A DNA stretch of 24,295 bases from a virus, in IMG/VR virus record IMGVR_UViG_3300013126_000238, positions 1 to 24,295 of that record. One strand, 5' to 3'. Made by a program: the position numbers and the translations under genes. The notes beneath the pieces are model-generated. The model searched no databases, was not told where the DNA came from, and worked only from the letters and a program-made list of their open reading frames with translations. Below, one piece after another: positions 3,282 through 23,153 of this stretch; within the stretch, counting starts at the first letter, position 1; each line of letters begins with the position of its first letter.

Positions 3282-3674
3282 ATGTCAACAGATTTCGAAT
3301 TATTTAAAGGAAAAAATCTCAGTTCACTATTTGAGGATATTTACAACAATCAGGTATCCAAAAAAACAAAAATAAGTGGATTAATAGAGGAATTAAAGAA
3401 AATGGTAAAGCACGCAGGTGATGTTGCTACCATAGGACCTGTTATACAGGGCTTAATTGATAGCTCAGTTAAAAACGATGACCAATTAGTAAAGTTAGCT
3501 ACGATTGCTCAAAGAATAGTAGCATCCGAAAAGAAATCAGAAGGCCAAGATGGGTTTTTGACAGAGTTTGAAAAAAATCAACTTCTTAAAGAATTAGAAG
3601 AAACAAAACAAGAAGTAGAAAGAGTTGATGATTTAGAATTCGAATTGGAAGAATTAAAAAAATCAGTTAAGTAA
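3282..3674 (+). CDS. conserved-looking T4-like phage protein of unknown function
   Basis: This 130-aa, mostly helical protein is first in its transcription unit. The N-terminal block (FELFKGKNLSSLFEDIYNNQ) is followed by a helical region (IGPVIQGLIDSSVKNDDQL, then VKLATIAQRIVASE). The C-terminus is a charged coiled coil (about 95-130, ending in Glu/Lys repeats). The pattern resembles small proteins I recall near hub or packaging genes of marine T4-like phages, but I cannot name the function. It overlaps the gp5-like spike gene by one base (TAATG), which suggests a role in central tail or hub assembly. A small structural or chaperone protein is possible. Confidence 0.7.
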   Translation: MSTDFELFKGKNLSSLFEDIYNNQVSKKTKISGLIEELKKMVKHAGDVATIGPVIQGLIDSSVKNDDQLVKLATIAQRIVASEKKSEGQDGFLTEFEKNQLLKELEETKQEVERVDDLEFELEELKKSVK

Positions 3675-4897
3675 TGGCAAGAACAACGGATAATTTTACA
3701 AATAATTCAAAAACAGCCGTAAATTATGCTGTGGTTTATAGTGTTATATTAGATAACACTCATCCACGTTATAATAATCCAAGTGATATAGGTGCGGTTG
3801 AATTTAGAAAATGGGATGATTTTAATACACCTGAAGAAAAACTACCATTGGCATATCCATCTAATAAAAATTTTATTGATTTACCACTAAAAAATGAAAA
3901 AGTTGAAATACGAACAATAGAGGGTGTACATTGTTATAGTAGATATATTAAAGATGTTTCGGGAAATAAAAACATTAGTAGTGCTGTAAATGAAATTATG
4001 GCTAGATTTGGAAATGTTACGGATGAAAGAAAAGATATTTCTGAAAGGGATAAGGCCAATCATTTTGCAAACGTAAGTGAAACTCAGATTCCAAGAAGCA
4101 CGTTAGATGGACCAACTGGTACAAATCATAATGGATACGGAAGATTGTTTGTACCTGCAAATATACACCACTTATCACTTAATGATGGTGATACTCTTAT
4201 AGAATCAAGATTTGGACAAAGTATAAGATTATCGGCGTATAATAACCCAAACAGAGCATTTGCCCCAACTATCATAATAAGAAATAGAGAAGCATCATCA
4301 ACACAAATTTTTTCAGCTAAATCTGGTTCTATTACCGAAGATATTAATAGAGATGGTTCTATTATATTTTTAGGTTCAGGTGAGCATGTATTACCATTTA
4401 TTCCTGGTACAATAGATGAAAAAGGAGGAACTGATTTTGCTCAAACTCCAAATTCATTTAAACCGTATCCAACCGAATTAAAGGGTGACCAAATGTTGTT
4501 AAGTAGTGGAAGAATTATTCTATCTGCAAAAAACGCTGAGATGATGTTTTACTCCAAAGGGAATTATGGATTTATATCAGATGCGGGAATGTCAATAGAT
4601 AATAAAGGTGGTATAAATGTAAACGTTGGAGAAGATATACATGTGGTAACAAACAATAGGAACGTAAATATTGTAAGTGGAAATGGTTCGATATTTTTAG
4701 GAAGTAAGGATTTAGAACCTATGGTAAAGGGACAAAAATTAGTTGAAATATTAGCGGAATTAATTGACCAAATAGGTTCGATGATTTTTCTAACCCCATC
4801 AGGTCCAAGTGCTGAAGGTCCAAAAAATTTACCAGAATTTGGAAAAATAAAATCAAAATTAAATGATATTTTGAGTAAAATAAATCAAACAGCATAG
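3674..4897 (+). CDS. baseplate hub spike, gp5-like without lysozyme domain
   Basis: This 407-aa protein looks like the central spike of T4-like baseplates. The N-terminal part (about 14-110) is beta-rich and fits an OB-fold. GDTLIESRFGQSIRLSAY near 172-189 matches the typical GDxLxExRFGxSIR element of T4-like hub proteins. After residue about 270, short beta repeats (LLSSGRIILSAKNAEMMFYS, then FISDAGMSIDNKGGINVNVG, VVTNNRNVNIVS) fit the trimeric beta-helical needle. The C-terminus is a helix plus a Pro/Gly segment. T4 gp5 has a lysozyme inserted between the OB-fold and the helix; no such domain is seen here. Separate muralytic genes lie 0.6-2 kb downstream. It is joined to the gene before by TAATG and to the gene after by a one-base gap. 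Confidence 0.8.
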   Translation: MARTTDNFTNNSKTAVNYAVVYSVILDNTHPRYNNPSDIGAVEFRKWDDFNTPEEKLPLAYPSNKNFIDLPLKNEKVEIRTIEGVHCYSRYIKDVSGNKNISSAVNEIMARFGNVTDERKDISERDKANHFANVSETQIPRSTLDGPTGTNHNGYGRLFVPANIHHLSLNDGDTLIESRFGQSIRLSAYNNPNRAFAPTIIIRNREASSTQIFSAKSGSITEDINRDGSIIFLGSGEHVLPFIPGTIDEKGGTDFAQTPNSFKPYPTELKGDQMLLSSGRIILSAKNAEMMFYSKGNYGFISDAGMSIDNKGGINVNVGEDIHVVTNNRNVNIVSGNGSIFLGSKDLEPMVKGQKLVEILAELIDQIGSMIFLTPSGPSAEGPKNLPEFGKIKSKLNDILSKINQTA

Positions 4898-4898
4898 T

Positions 4899-5456
4899 AT
4901 GGCGGAACAATTAGATAAAGCAAAACAGGCAGGACAAGGACAAATTAAAGGAGCTCTAGGCCAAAATGCTGCAAAAGCAGAAGGATTAGTTAAGGGAGGA
5001 TTGGAAAACGCTTTTAATGGAGGTGCAGCGGCTATTAAACAATTATTAAATGGATTAAAAGATTCATTGGGTATTCCTGATTTACCAAAAATACCAAAAA
5101 AACCAAAATTTCCAGAATTAAAAAAATTTGAACCGAAGAAACCACCAACACCAAAAATTTACGAAAAAGAAGAAAAAAAGTTTGATTACGCACCGGCACC
5201 TGCAGTTCAAAATCCAGTACCAAGAAAACCGGTAACACCAAAGGGAAATTTATCATATAGATATGAATTCACCGATGGTAGAAAACCTAGAATTTCTGTT
5301 TTGTTTTATGAAGGTGATAGATACGTTGATGCAGTAGGTTCATTGGCATTTACGAGTCCAATTAGTGAACAACGTGCGGTAGAGTTATTTATAATAAATA
5401 ATAAGGCAGAGCATCCAAACTTAGAAACTTGGGGAATGCAAAAATTAACTAAATAA
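4899..5456 (+). CDS. Pro/Lys-rich hub-region protein, unknown function
   Basis: This 185-aa protein has three zones. Residues 1-45 are Ala/Gly/Gln-rich and helical (KQAGQGQIKGALGQNAAKAE). Residues 58-105 are a Pro/Lys-rich extended linker (IPKIPKKPKFPELKKFEPKK is typical). Residues 110-185 are a small folded domain (SYRYEFTDGRKPRISVLFYE, then RAVELFIINNKAEHPNLETW). I do not recognise the family. Its place between the spike and the CHAP hydrolase, with one-base spacing on each side, suggests a hub or tail-tip component. The flexible linker would suit an adaptor. It overlaps the next gene by one base (TAATG). Confidence 0.68.
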   Translation: MAEQLDKAKQAGQGQIKGALGQNAAKAEGLVKGGLENAFNGGAAAIKQLLNGLKDSLGIPDLPKIPKKPKFPELKKFEPKKPPTPKIYEKEEKKFDYAPAPAVQNPVPRKPVTPKGNLSYRYEFTDGRKPRISVLFYEGDRYVDAVGSLAFTSPISEQRAVELFIINNKAEHPNLETWGMQKLTK

Positions 5457-6895
5457 TGTCTTGGGAAACTTTTAAACAAAATATACTAAGAGTTGCTAAT
5501 AATCCTGATGGAATACAAAACATTGAAACAATAGCAGATTTATATGCTAATGAGTATGATGCCGCAATAAAAAGAGGGTTCGATACAGTTAATGGTACGA
5601 AGGTTAGAAGTGGTGATGTTGCAACTATGAAACAATTTTTTCTTTCCGCATTACAAAAAGGTTTAACTTCATCTCAACCTTATGATTTAGTTGGAGAAAT
5701 GGGGCAAGGAGTTATAGCGTATTGGAGTACTGCAGTATTAGGTAATGAAGTAGTTCCAGTAACACCAGCAATAGGAGCAACTTCAAATGTATCAGTTATA
5801 TCAAATCTGGTAACAAATCCTGGTATTTGGCAAAGACCCGCAACACAATTGGTGACATCGTTTGAACTAAAACCTAAAGAAAGAATTGAATATCAAGAAA
5901 AATTAGAAACATCTACAGAAAAATATGAACAAGCGGTTGAACAAAAAGAACCAGTAGTAGCAAGTACACATTTAGATGAGATAAATAAATATCAATCAAT
6001 TCTTGAACAAAATGAAAAATATAGAATTGATATACCATATATTCCATCGGAATCATCGAACACAGCTCCTACACAAACACCAACACCTAATCCAACACCA
6101 ACACCTAATCCAACACCAACACCTAGTCCAACACCAACACCTAGTCCAACACCAACACCTAGTCCAACACCAACACCTTCTACAACCATTACAACAACAT
6201 TGCCACCAATAATTGATGCGATAAGAGAAGGAGAAGAAGATGATGATGTAAGAGTAAGTTCTGAAGAAGATATTGTAGTTCAAGGACAATTTAGTGAGGG
6301 CAAACCTTGGAACATAGGATTTAGAGGAGGTCTTGATAGTGGTGGATTTGGAAGTGGTGGGTATAATGTAGCATATGTGCCATTTCCAAATAATTTCCCA
6401 GCAAACGCAAGTTTAGGAACAAAAGCAGTAACAATTGCACTTTATGATTCAGCACAAGGTGTTAAAGAAGTACCTAAAGGTAGTGATACTGGTCATGATA
6501 GAATTAAACAAATGCAAAAAAATGGAACAGGAGGAAGTAAAACAGGATTTCCATGGTGTGCATGTGCAGTAACAACTTGGTGGCAGGAAGCTGGAGTGGT
6601 AATAGCAAATCATGAAAATAAAGCGTATGTTCCAACTTGGGTTACTTGGGCGGTTGCAAATAATAGATTTGTTGATAAGAGAGAAGGAGCAAATCCAACC
6701 TATTTACCAAAACCAGGCGATGCAATAGTTTATGGATGGGGAAGTTTAAATAATGAACATAATGGATTTGACCATATAGGAATGGTATGGAAAGTTGAAA
6801 ATGGTGTTGTATATGGAATTGATGGAAACTTTTCGGATGCGGTTACTACGCATGTTGCGAATCCAAAAACAATAAGGGGATACATTTTAATTTAA
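5456..6895 (+). CDS. tail-associated cell-wall hydrolase with C-terminal CHAP domain
   Basis: This 479-aa modular protein has an N-terminal domain of about 130 residues, typical of a virion protein and containing EMGQGVIAYWSTAVLG. A Gln/Glu-rich helix (150-190) follows, then a Pro-Thr repeat linker (205-243), a 27-residue tag shared with the next gene (266-292), a Gly-rich hinge and a C-terminal CHAP-type amidase/endopeptidase domain (about 320-479). CHAP hallmarks are FPWCACAVTTWW (Cys368 candidate nucleophile), the KPGDAIVYGW strand, GFDHIGMV (His440) and GIDGNF (Asp456 or Asn458 as third residue). It would cut peptidoglycan peptide or amide bonds during DNA entry. There is no signal peptide. 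Location within the hub operon argues for a tail enzyme rather than an endolysin, though an endolysin role cannot be excluded. Six bases separate it from the lysozyme gene. Confidence 0.85.
   Translation: MSWETFKQNILRVANNPDGIQNIETIADLYANEYDAAIKRGFDTVNGTKVRSGDVATMKQFFLSALQKGLTSSQPYDLVGEMGQGVIAYWSTAVLGNEVVPVTPAIGATSNVSVISNLVTNPGIWQRPATQLVTSFELKPKERIEYQEKLETSTEKYEQAVEQKEPVVASTHLDEINKYQSILEQNEKYRIDIPYIPSESSNTAPTQTPTPNPTPTPNPTPTPSPTPTPSPTPTPSPTPTPSTTITTTLPPIIDAIREGEEDDDVRVSSEEDIVVQGQFSEGKPWNIGFRGGLDSGGFGSGGYNVAYVPFPNNFPANASLGTKAVTIALYDSAQGVKEVPKGSDTGHDRIKQMQKNGTGGSKTGFPWCACAVTTWWQEAGVVIANHENKAYVPTWVTWAVANNRFVDKREGANPTYLPKPGDAIVYGWGSLNNEHNGFDHIGMVWKVENGVVYGIDGNFSDAVTTHVANPKTIRGYILI
6080..6178 (+). 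repeat. 18-bp tandem repeat coding for a Pro-Thr linker
   Basis: The unit CCAACACCAACACCTAGT (or ...AAT) is repeated head to tail at 6092-6109, 6110-6127, 6128-6145, 6146-6163 and partly 6164-6178, with a degenerate copy before. In the reading frame each unit gives Pro-Thr-Pro-Thr-Pro-Ser/Asn. The length is a multiple of three, so copy-number change would lengthen or shorten the linker between the N-terminal domain and the tag/CHAP half without a frameshift. Confidence 0.92.
6251..6331 (+). repeat. 81-bp dispersed repeat, copy 1 (shared hydrolase tag)
   Basis: This segment of the CHAP gene matches 7220-7300 of the lysozyme gene at 78 of 81 bases by my alignment. It codes for residues 266-292, with the core SEEDIVVQGQFSEG followed by PWNIGFRGG. 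A Gly/Ser-rich stretch follows in both genes. Confidence 0.92.
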
Positions 6896-6901
6896 CAAAT
6901 T

Positions 6902-7885
6902 ATGTCAGCAATTAATCCAACTCAGAATACGGGTCTAATAGTAGATGAATTTATCAGATATGCAAATGAACATCTTTTAACAATTCAAGGATTGGTTGAT
7001 ACAACATCTATTTTTCCAACTGTACCATCTCCAGTAATTTTACCTGGTAAACTATTTTGGAAAGGATATACGGTTCAACCATCTACTCCATCTAAAGAAT
7101 TGGGAATAGATGATTTTCCTGCAAAAGAAAATGTAGAACCTCAATTTTCAAAACCAGCCACAACTGAAGAACAGGTGTTTGTAGATGGAATACGTGAAGA
7201 TGAAATGGATGAAGAAATTAGAGTAAATTCCGAAGAAGATATTGTAGTTCAAGGACAATTTAGTGAGGGCACACCTTGGAACATAGGATTTAGAGGAGGT
7301 GGAGGTGGTTTTTCGTCTGGATTTACCGGAGCTGTAAATGTAGATTTAGGTAACTTAGATTTAAGTGCAGATTGGATTACACTATCTGCACAATTTATAG
7401 GAAAAAAAGAAGGATTTACTGATAGAGCAACTTGGGATGTAAATGCATATAGATTAGGATTTGGTACTGAAAACATTGTTGGTAGTGATGGTAAAGTAAG
7501 AAAAGTTTTACCAAACCCAGAATATTATAAACAAACTGGAGAAAAGCAACCAGCTAATGGTGATAGAACTACTGTTGAGGCGGCCCTTAAAATGTTACAA
7601 TTTGAAGTTGCTGACACATTTAAGAAAAGATTAGTTGGAAGCGAACCCCAACAAATACCACAGGCAACTTTCGATGCTTTAAATAATAAACAAAAAGCTG
7701 CATGTATAAGTTACGTTTATAATGCTGGTAGTCTTAGATTAGGAATTGCCGATGCAATAAAAGCAAAAAACTTTGCTCTTGCTGCTGCAAAAATTAAAGA
7801 AGGACCGATTACCGATAAATATGGCACGGTTTATAAGGGATTAATAAGAAGAAGGGCTGAAGAAAGTACTATGTTTTCATCATAA
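6902..7885 (+). CDS. tail-associated GH24 (T4-type) lysozyme
   Basis: This 327-aa protein has an N-terminal part (1-100) of unknown fold with Pro-rich stretches. The 27-residue tag shared with the CHAP protein (107-133) follows, then a Gly/Ser hinge and a C-terminal GH24 muramidase domain (about 150-327). The domain has KKEGF with Glu170 in the place of T4 lysozyme Glu11, and Asp179 nine residues later, as Asp20 follows Glu11 in T4. AYRLGFG matches the YYTIGIG strand but carries Arg184 where T4 has Thr26. KAACISYVYNAGS and YKGLIRRRAEESTMF match the usual SFxFNxG and GLxxRRxxE elements. It should cut the glycan backbone of peptidoglycan locally as the tail penetrates. It is last in the hub operon. 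Confidence 0.87.
   Translation: MSAINPTQNTGLIVDEFIRYANEHLLTIQGLVDTTSIFPTVPSPVILPGKLFWKGYTVQPSTPSKELGIDDFPAKENVEPQFSKPATTEEQVFVDGIREDEMDEEIRVNSEEDIVVQGQFSEGTPWNIGFRGGGGGFSSGFTGAVNVDLGNLDLSADWITLSAQFIGKKEGFTDRATWDVNAYRLGFGTENIVGSDGKVRKVLPNPEYYKQTGEKQPANGDRTTVEAALKMLQFEVADTFKKRLVGSEPQQIPQATFDALNNKQKAACISYVYNAGSLRLGIADAIKAKNFALAAAKIKEGPITDKYGTVYKGLIRRRAEESTMFSS
7220..7300 (+). repeat. 81-bp dispersed repeat, copy 2 (shared hydrolase tag)
   Basis: This is the second copy of the 6251-6331 segment, in the same frame, coding for residues 107-133 of the lysozyme. Differences are three single bases, two near the start and one in the codon before the PWNIGFRGG core (Lys in copy 1, Thr in copy 2). Confidence 0.92.
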
Positions 7886-22503: not shown

Positions 22504-22746
22504 ATGTCAAAAATTTTAGAACTTTTACTTAGTAAGAAACCAAAAGATTCTCAAGCTAATACAAAAGGTAAAGATAAAACACCAATTGGTGTAGAGTTCC
22601 CTTTTCCGGGTTCCAAAGACTTAATGAAAGGTGATTTGAAAAAAGATAGATATGGAGCATTAGGCGCAAATCAGTATGCACCCGCTAATGCGGTACCTGG
22701 ATACAATCCTGGTAAAAAATATACTGATGTTGTAAAAGCAAAATAA
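22504..22746 (+). CDS. small basic protein, unknown
   Basis: In this 80-aa, lysine-rich protein, a short N-terminal helix (SKILELLLSKK) is followed by a low-complexity, probably disordered body with many Gly, Pro, Lys and Asn (VEFPFPGSKDLMKGDLKKDR, then YAPANAVPGYNPGKKY). I do not recognise it. A minor virion component is possible, judging by the motif upstream shared with structural operons. It overlaps the GIY-YIG gene by one base (TAATG). Confidence 0.6.
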   Translation: MSKILELLLSKKPKDSQANTKGKDKTPIGVEFPFPGSKDLMKGDLKKDRYGALGANQYAPANAVPGYNPGKKYTDVVKAK

Positions 22747-23153
22747 TGTCTTGGAAATTTAAGGGAAATACGGTTACGGAAGAAAACACTCCAGAGGGTG
22801 CTATTGGTTTTGTCTATAAAATTATACATATTCCAACGGGTAAATTTTATATTGGCAAAAAATCATTAAATCAAGTTCGTAGATTAAAACCGCTAAAGGG
22901 AAAGGTTCGTAAAAGAGTAGTTCGTAAAGCATCAGACTGGGAAAAATACTATTCATCAAACGAATGGATTAAAGCGGAGATAAAAGCTGGTAGAGCTGAG
23001 GAATTTGAAAGAGAAATTATTCAATTCTGCTTCAGCAAAAAATCACTTACATATTGGGAAGTTTGGTGGCAGTTTAAATTAGATGTTTTATCTGACCCAC
23101 AATCTATTAATGAAAATTTAATGGGAAAATTCTTCCGAAAGGATATATATTAA
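22746..23153 (+). CDS. GIY-YIG family endonuclease
   Basis: This 135-aa protein carries a single compact GIY-YIG domain. GFVYKIIHIPTGKFYIGKKS (21-40) holds the GFVY and YIG halves of the motif, 14 residues apart. A basic stretch follows (VRRLKPLKGKVRKRVVRK), then SDWEKYYSSNEWIKAEI. LTYWEVWWQF supplies a likely catalytic Glu105, and INENLMGKFF ends the domain. The fold cuts one DNA strand with a single metal ion. In T4 it occurs in the homing Seg enzymes and in endonuclease II. No extra DNA-binding domain is attached, so it may be a free-standing homing nuclease or a repair or recombination nuclease. It begins TAATG-coupled to the gene before and ends 12 bases before the next. Confidence 0.85.
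   Translation: MSWKFKGNTVTEENTPEGAIGFVYKIIHIPTGKFYIGKKSLNQVRRLKPLKGKVRKRVVRKASDWEKYYSSNEWIKAEIKAGRAEEFEREIIQFCFSKKSLTYWEVWWQFKLDVLSDPQSINENLMGKFFRKDIY

Follow-up and report, generated by a model that had tools for sequence, protein, structure and literature searches.

Phage T4 carries its tail lysozyme within the spike protein, gp5. The locus described here resembles such T4-like baseplate hydrolases in that its two putative hydrolase genes lie after a spike-like gene and before wedge genes of the gp25/gp6 type, and in that the model of the second gene product has a T4-type lysozyme fold. It differs from gp5, however, in encoding two separate proteins, with N-terminal domains of their own and exchangeable enzymes. 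Cellulosome dockerins fold into Ca-binding modules, and their cohesin partners are known. As with the sequence tag considered below, a near-identical, lineage-specific segment is carried by different enzymes of one organism, but our tag is internal, predicted to be disordered, and without a known partner. Paralogs evolving in concert through gene conversion also have copies that are closer within than between genomes; in the present case, in contrast, a short segment of two otherwise unrelated genes is involved, and there are signs that old pairs have been kept matched.

Domain mosaicism and shuffling in phage lysins and tail proteins are well described (PMC10684548, Nat Commun 2023), and the exchange of enzymes behind constant N-terminal domains is in line with that work. 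The study quantifies shuffling between proteins; a search of it for the terms "same genome", "paralog", and "within-genome" gave no occurrence. In extracellular contractile injection systems (eCIS) such as PVC and Afp, payload signal peptides serve to bring different proteins into a contractile particle resembling a phage tail (PMC11495950, PMC10097599). Those signals are N-terminal, whereas the matched 27-residue core of our tag begins at residue 266 of the CHAP protein and 107 of the lysozyme protein, behind N-domains that look like anchors. In the open-access literature, and the few subscription papers covered, we found no report of matched segments or tags in two tail hydrolases.

Organization of the Locus

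The window, i.e., the whole stretch of DNA analysed, is a virus record of 24.3 kb; its genes include wedge genes of the gp25- and gp6-like kinds. By the gp6-like protein it is nearest, among annotated phages, to Flavobacterium phage immuto and Microcystis phage Mel-JY01 (38–40%). The features relevant to this study are the following.

3674–4897, + strand: putative gp5-like spike without a lysozyme domain, assigned from position and sequence character
4899–5456, + strand: gene 0, Ala/Lys-Pro-rich, with a swappable C-terminal domain
5456–6895, + strand: gene 1, ORF of 479 aa comprising N-dom1, a long linker, tag 1, and a CHAP hydrolase
5456–5830, + strand: N-dom1 (residues 1–125), conserved helical N-terminal domain, probable tail anchor of gene 1
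6063–6206, + strand: Thr/Pro repeat spacer of 18-nt units upstream of tag 1 (repeat family D1)
6215–6331, + strand: tag 1, with an acidic variable segment, GKPWNIGF core, and Gly hinge; positions 6251–6331 match tag 2 at 96% identity
6299–6322, + strand: tag 1 core, GKP[F/W]xxGF, from alignment; common to most relatives
6539–6829, + strand: CHAP domain, Pfam-matched part (PF05257)
6902–7885, + strand: gene 2, ORF of 327 aa comprising N-dom2, tag 2, and a T4-type lysozyme
6902–7099, + strand: N-dom2 (residues 1–66), conserved N-terminal segment, probable tail anchor of gene 2
7184–7300, + strand: tag 2, matched copy of tag 1, predicted to be disordered
7268–7291, + strand: tag 2 core, GTPWNIGF, from alignment
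7337–7882, + strand: T4-type lysozyme domain (AF2 pLDDT ~80–95 over most of residues 146–327)

Both adjacent genes thus have the same architecture: an N-domain, a linker tag predicted to be disordered, and an exchangeable enzyme. Assignment of gene 1 to the CHAP family by PF05257 (residues 362–458) was marginal, at 26.2 bits against a cut-off of 26; it was also supported by PHROG endolysin matches, and the domain gave weak Foldseek matches to CHAP amidases. Gene 2 matched Phage_lysozyme (GH24, PF00959) over residues 216–321 with 26.1 bits against a cut-off of 22.3, and its model matched phage lysozymes (Foldseek E 4e-6), including the gp5 lysozyme domain. The lysozyme therefore resides in its own gene rather than within the spike protein as in T4. 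The spike-like ORF itself had no Pfam or PHROG match. Helices were present in the AF2 model of N-dom1, and a search of the PDB gave no sequence relatives of either N-domain.

Two observations concern other parts of the window. Four successive ORFs (234–992, 992–1828, 1828–2187, and 2189–2422) share a similar leader (MISLKKLLTE, MILLRDIMAE, MIKLVDILKE, and MITLKSLLKE), and similar starts occur in 47 distinct ORFs of the fetched loci. In T4, the prohead protease cuts the capsid-targeting leader after xxE; the leaders at 234–2422 resemble it and, by analogy, these genes may encode internal head proteins. At 22746–23153 there is a SegE-type GIY-YIG homing endonuclease (PF19835, E 2e-26).

A Near-Identical Segment in Two Unrelated Genes

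An initial annotation of this DNA had claimed that an 81-bp segment is nearly the same in the CHAP and lysozyme genes while the rest of the two genes is unrelated. Positions 6251–6331 and 7220–7300 do differ at exactly 3 of 81 bases, and by a crude independent-sites estimate such a pair would be expected by chance at ~1e-29. Weaker similarity extends 5' to 6215 and 7184, giving 117 nt with 16 mismatches; the 3' edge, at the Gly hinge, is sharp, and the two copies contain long perfect stretches. Outside the repeat the proteins are indeed unrelated, the enzymes belonging to different Pfam families and the N-domains showing no similarity by profile comparison, so that N-dom1 and N-dom2 could be ruled out as relatives of each other. 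An assembly quirk was likewise ruled out, because relatives from independent samples have the same arrangement with different tag sequences.

Conserved N-Domains and Variable Enzymes

When IMG/VR was scanned with gene 2, with gene 1, and with alignments of the two N-domains, ~150 loci were obtained and dereplicated to 62 gene pairs. N-dom1 (125 aa) and N-dom2 (~66 aa) were conserved throughout, with identities of 47–64% for N-dom1 over seven divergent relatives with differing enzymes and of 40–53% for N-dom2 over relatives that also differed in enzyme. The C-terminal enzymes were of at least eight types: CHAP occurred in gene 1 only, T4-type lysozyme and GH19 in gene 2 only, and M15 and VanY peptidases in either gene, while further clusters had no Pfam match. 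With so many enzyme types exchanged behind them, the conserved N-domains are the more likely anchors. They would also be close together in the particle, since in L008 and L010–L014 N-dom1, N-dom2, and one lysozyme are fused in a single protein (L009 is the 3' part of such a fusion gene). The GKP motif was absent from these single-enzyme fusions (L008–L014), though both N-domains were kept.

Some loci departed from the common layout. In L085, L086, and L088, gene 2 consisted of N-dom2 alone (69 aa), without an enzyme. In eight others (L054, L069, L072, L078, L081, L084, L090, and L119) the two genes shared the linker and much or all of the enzyme domain, ~57–85% identical where shown, so that the reach of homogenisation or copying can include the entire C-terminal half. 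Gene 1 of L001, L002, and L006, and only gene 1, carried the partial start of a second tag (VDLGYFELDS) ~50 residues upstream of the tag.

Searches beyond these loci gave no counterparts: tblastn found the tag or the N-domains in no cultured phage, and bacterial genome contigs contained neither. Mel-JY01 lacks N-dom1 and N-dom2, although its gene order around a GH19 "putative chitinase" is comparable (L195, 154494–174353); among the proteins listed for immuto there was no counterpart of the two genes.

Tags Match within Each Genome

Within this group of uncultured T4-like phages, near-identical paired tags, strongly different from one phage to another, were found in CHAP+lysozyme phages and in some other enzyme pairs. 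We compared the linker of gene 1 with the gene 2 linkers of its own and of other genomes (those <85% identical in N-dom1) for the 56 pairs with usable linkers, placing the linker ends at fixed offsets. In each of the 19 dereplicated IMG/VR phages with CHAP and lysozyme, both genes had a shared linker tag, predicted to be disordered, and the gene 1 linker scored best against that of its own gene 2. The own linker was also best in CHAP/VanY and similar pairs and in same-enzyme pairs; for VanY/M15 pairs it ranked best in 4/6 and among the top three in 6/6. The same tag is thus carried by CHAP and lysozyme, and likewise by CHAP/VanY and VanY/M15 pairs. Genomes with GH19 in gene 2, in contrast, showed a matched tag in 0/17 cases. 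The tags of four CHAP+lysozyme genomes (L037, L041, L045, and L060) also matched but lacked the GKP core and belonged to a different class. Long homologous linkers had confounded an earlier ortholog-versus-paralog scoring of the linkers (62/152), in whose place the tags alone were then compared.

Where the tag has a GKP[F/W] core (15 genomes), its identity averaged 0.90 within genomes versus 0.37–0.38 between them; mean N-dom1 identity between these genomes was 0.75. Tag 1 and tag 2 identities over genome pairs correlated at 0.96, with permuted pairings peaking at 0.69. The copies were more alike within than between genomes in 19/19 genomes and 102/105 genome pairs. A nucleotide tree of the tags clustered by genome, not by gene, with 13 changes of gene label, at least nine of them forced by supported branches; the two tags of the window paired at 100/100.

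A tag profile matched exactly these two genes in each of 17 records of 8–61 kb, and no other gene in those records; a scan of all IMG/VR contigs with the core pattern found 29 contigs, mostly with two occurrences each. The initial annotation had reasoned that a tag confined to these two genes of one genome would point to a chance recent duplication. The high similarity of the window's copies (3/81 differences) would suit such an event, but the same design, with different sequences, recurs in all 19 CHAP+lysozyme genomes; we therefore rejected a one-off tandem duplication limited to this phage, which is extremely improbable.

Replacement as a Pair, Age, and Constraint

The clearest view of tag replacement came from L035 and L040, whose N-domains are 95% and 93%, CHAP domains 97%, and lysozymes 95% identical, while each tag is only 29% identical. 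Along the nucleotide identity profile of this pair, narrow, sharp troughs coincided with the two tags, and there was a third where gene 0 encodes its C-terminus. Troughs at both tags were also seen for L007/L046 and L046/L057, where the lysozymes differ too. The gene 0 C-terminus is a third hypervariable spot adjoining the two tags, with alternative, swapped domain types among relatives (4899–5456 in the window, about 1709–1907 in L158).

Pooled over within-genome tag pairs, dS was 0.34 and dN 0.054 (dN/dS 0.16), each pair offering only 19–24 synonymous sites and the genomes being partly non-independent. Some pairs looked recently homogenised (dS 0.05 in L057, 0.10 in L007, and 0.14 in L040), whereas others were old, with dS of 0.5–1.5, yet nearly unchanged as protein. 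In L002, 13/20 synonymous sites had changed against about two nonsynonymous changes, and this pair was older than the divergence of the L001 and L002 flanks (p 5e-5); the L035 pair (8/21 synonymous) was older than the L035–L040 flank divergence (64/348, p 0.03). At least some pairs have therefore not just been copied but have stayed alike as protein. From the clustering by genome, the drop of identity at the L035/L040 tags, and the dN/dS values, we conclude that the two tags of a genome undergo concerted evolution and replacement as a pair, under constraint at the protein level. Judged from few sites in few genomes, pair age and constraint favour selection over pure recombination.

Properties of the Tag and Candidate Partners

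In AF2 models the enzymes folded, whereas both tags were of low confidence (pLDDT mostly <45), which, the alignments being shallow, is weak evidence for disorder; these models gave no sign of a folded module. The variable part carried a net negative charge, from –1 to –8, in 30/30 copies. Several baseplate genes tracked the tag about equally (correlations of 0.66–0.74 for the spike N-part, gp25, and gp6; the spike N-part, at r = 0.69, was no better than gp6), and no unique co-varying partner was found among them. The spike at 3674–4897 is a possible partner. Gene 0 was excluded as an obligatory one, since its C-terminal type does not follow tag class (r = 0.11) and the gene being absent from VanY/M15 genomes with matched linkers.

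These results support only in part the two roles suggested for the tag in the initial annotation. The same tag does occur on different enzymes, but the idea of a docking peptide that plugs them into one tail site needs revision: the N-domains have the look of anchors, a 69-aa N-domain can be all there is of gene 2, and the tag is not an obligatory plug, because GH19 pairs lack matched tags and the fusions lack the motif. The second role, a recombination point for enzyme swapping, is partly right: enzyme exchange does take place behind the linker, but in the clearest pair, L035/L040, it is the tags that are swapped while the enzymes stay.

Possible Origins of the Matching

The matching suggests that the two tags evolve together and, probably, that they have one and the same contact in the virus particle; the tag would most likely be a linear motif, specific to the lineage, that binds a partner common to both enzymes or its own other copy. 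In the scheme that we favour, and to which we give about even chances, the N-domains would anchor the two proteins side by side close to the tail spike. The tag, which in most lineages runs from a variable and mostly acidic stretch into GKPFVxGF, would act as a linear motif that makes contact either with a single partner common to both proteins, in the virion or at the assembly stage, or with the tag of the other enzyme. Because both tags would serve one shared contact, a change in one copy would have to be matched in the other; such matching could arise through within-genome recombination between the two copies and be retained by selection. Against this stand the about equal tracking of the tag by several baseplate genes, which singles out no partner, the GH19 pairs, for which matching is dispensable, and the fact that purifying selection on each copy after homogenisation could also give a low dN/dS.

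The main rival is recombination-driven homogenisation, which we consider doubtful but worth serious attention. The tag would be an ordinary, mildly constrained interdomain linker whose copies, ~970 bp apart, are homogenised by gene conversion without any docking; its conserved ends would ease recombination, and matching would be an unselected by-product of replication-linked recombination. The long perfect stretches and sharp 3' edges fit conversion, as do the low-dS pairs, while same-enzyme pairs such as L078, L081, and L119 are similar over linker and enzyme, as with repeated copying. However, the old, high-dS pairs do not require conversion and are still matched as protein; genomes separated by an N-dom1 dS of just 0.2–0.35 have different tag classes, yet none of the 19 genomes is mismatched; and L035 retains both old tags while its flanks match those of L040. 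A purely homotypic contact, with the tags binding each other or occupying pseudo-equivalent sites in a mixed hydrolase oligomer, would make identical tags natural, and the tags are in fact identical and not complementary, the motif is missing from the fusions, where only one enzyme exists, and the same fusions imply proximity of the N-domains. Still, both tags are predicted to be disordered alone and GH19 pairs need no match, and we deem this arrangement improbable.

More specifically, the variable motif plus the constant GKPFVxGF might constitute a lineage-specific matching code, identical in both hydrolases for one partner or for each other, a suggestion that we offer tentatively and consider rather unlikely. 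If true, such a code would keep a phage's own enzymes together in co-infection and would let enzymes be exchanged without breaking assembly. The locus also shows clearly how a 100-bp segment can undergo concerted evolution within two otherwise unrelated phage genes. Mosaicism of tail hydrolases is known; the question is how exchanged enzymes remain compatible with the particle. Many natural tag pairs are matched behind constant anchors, with GH19 pairs, fusions, and an N-domain-only gene as natural exceptions, and the question of enzyme compatibility thereby becomes directly testable.
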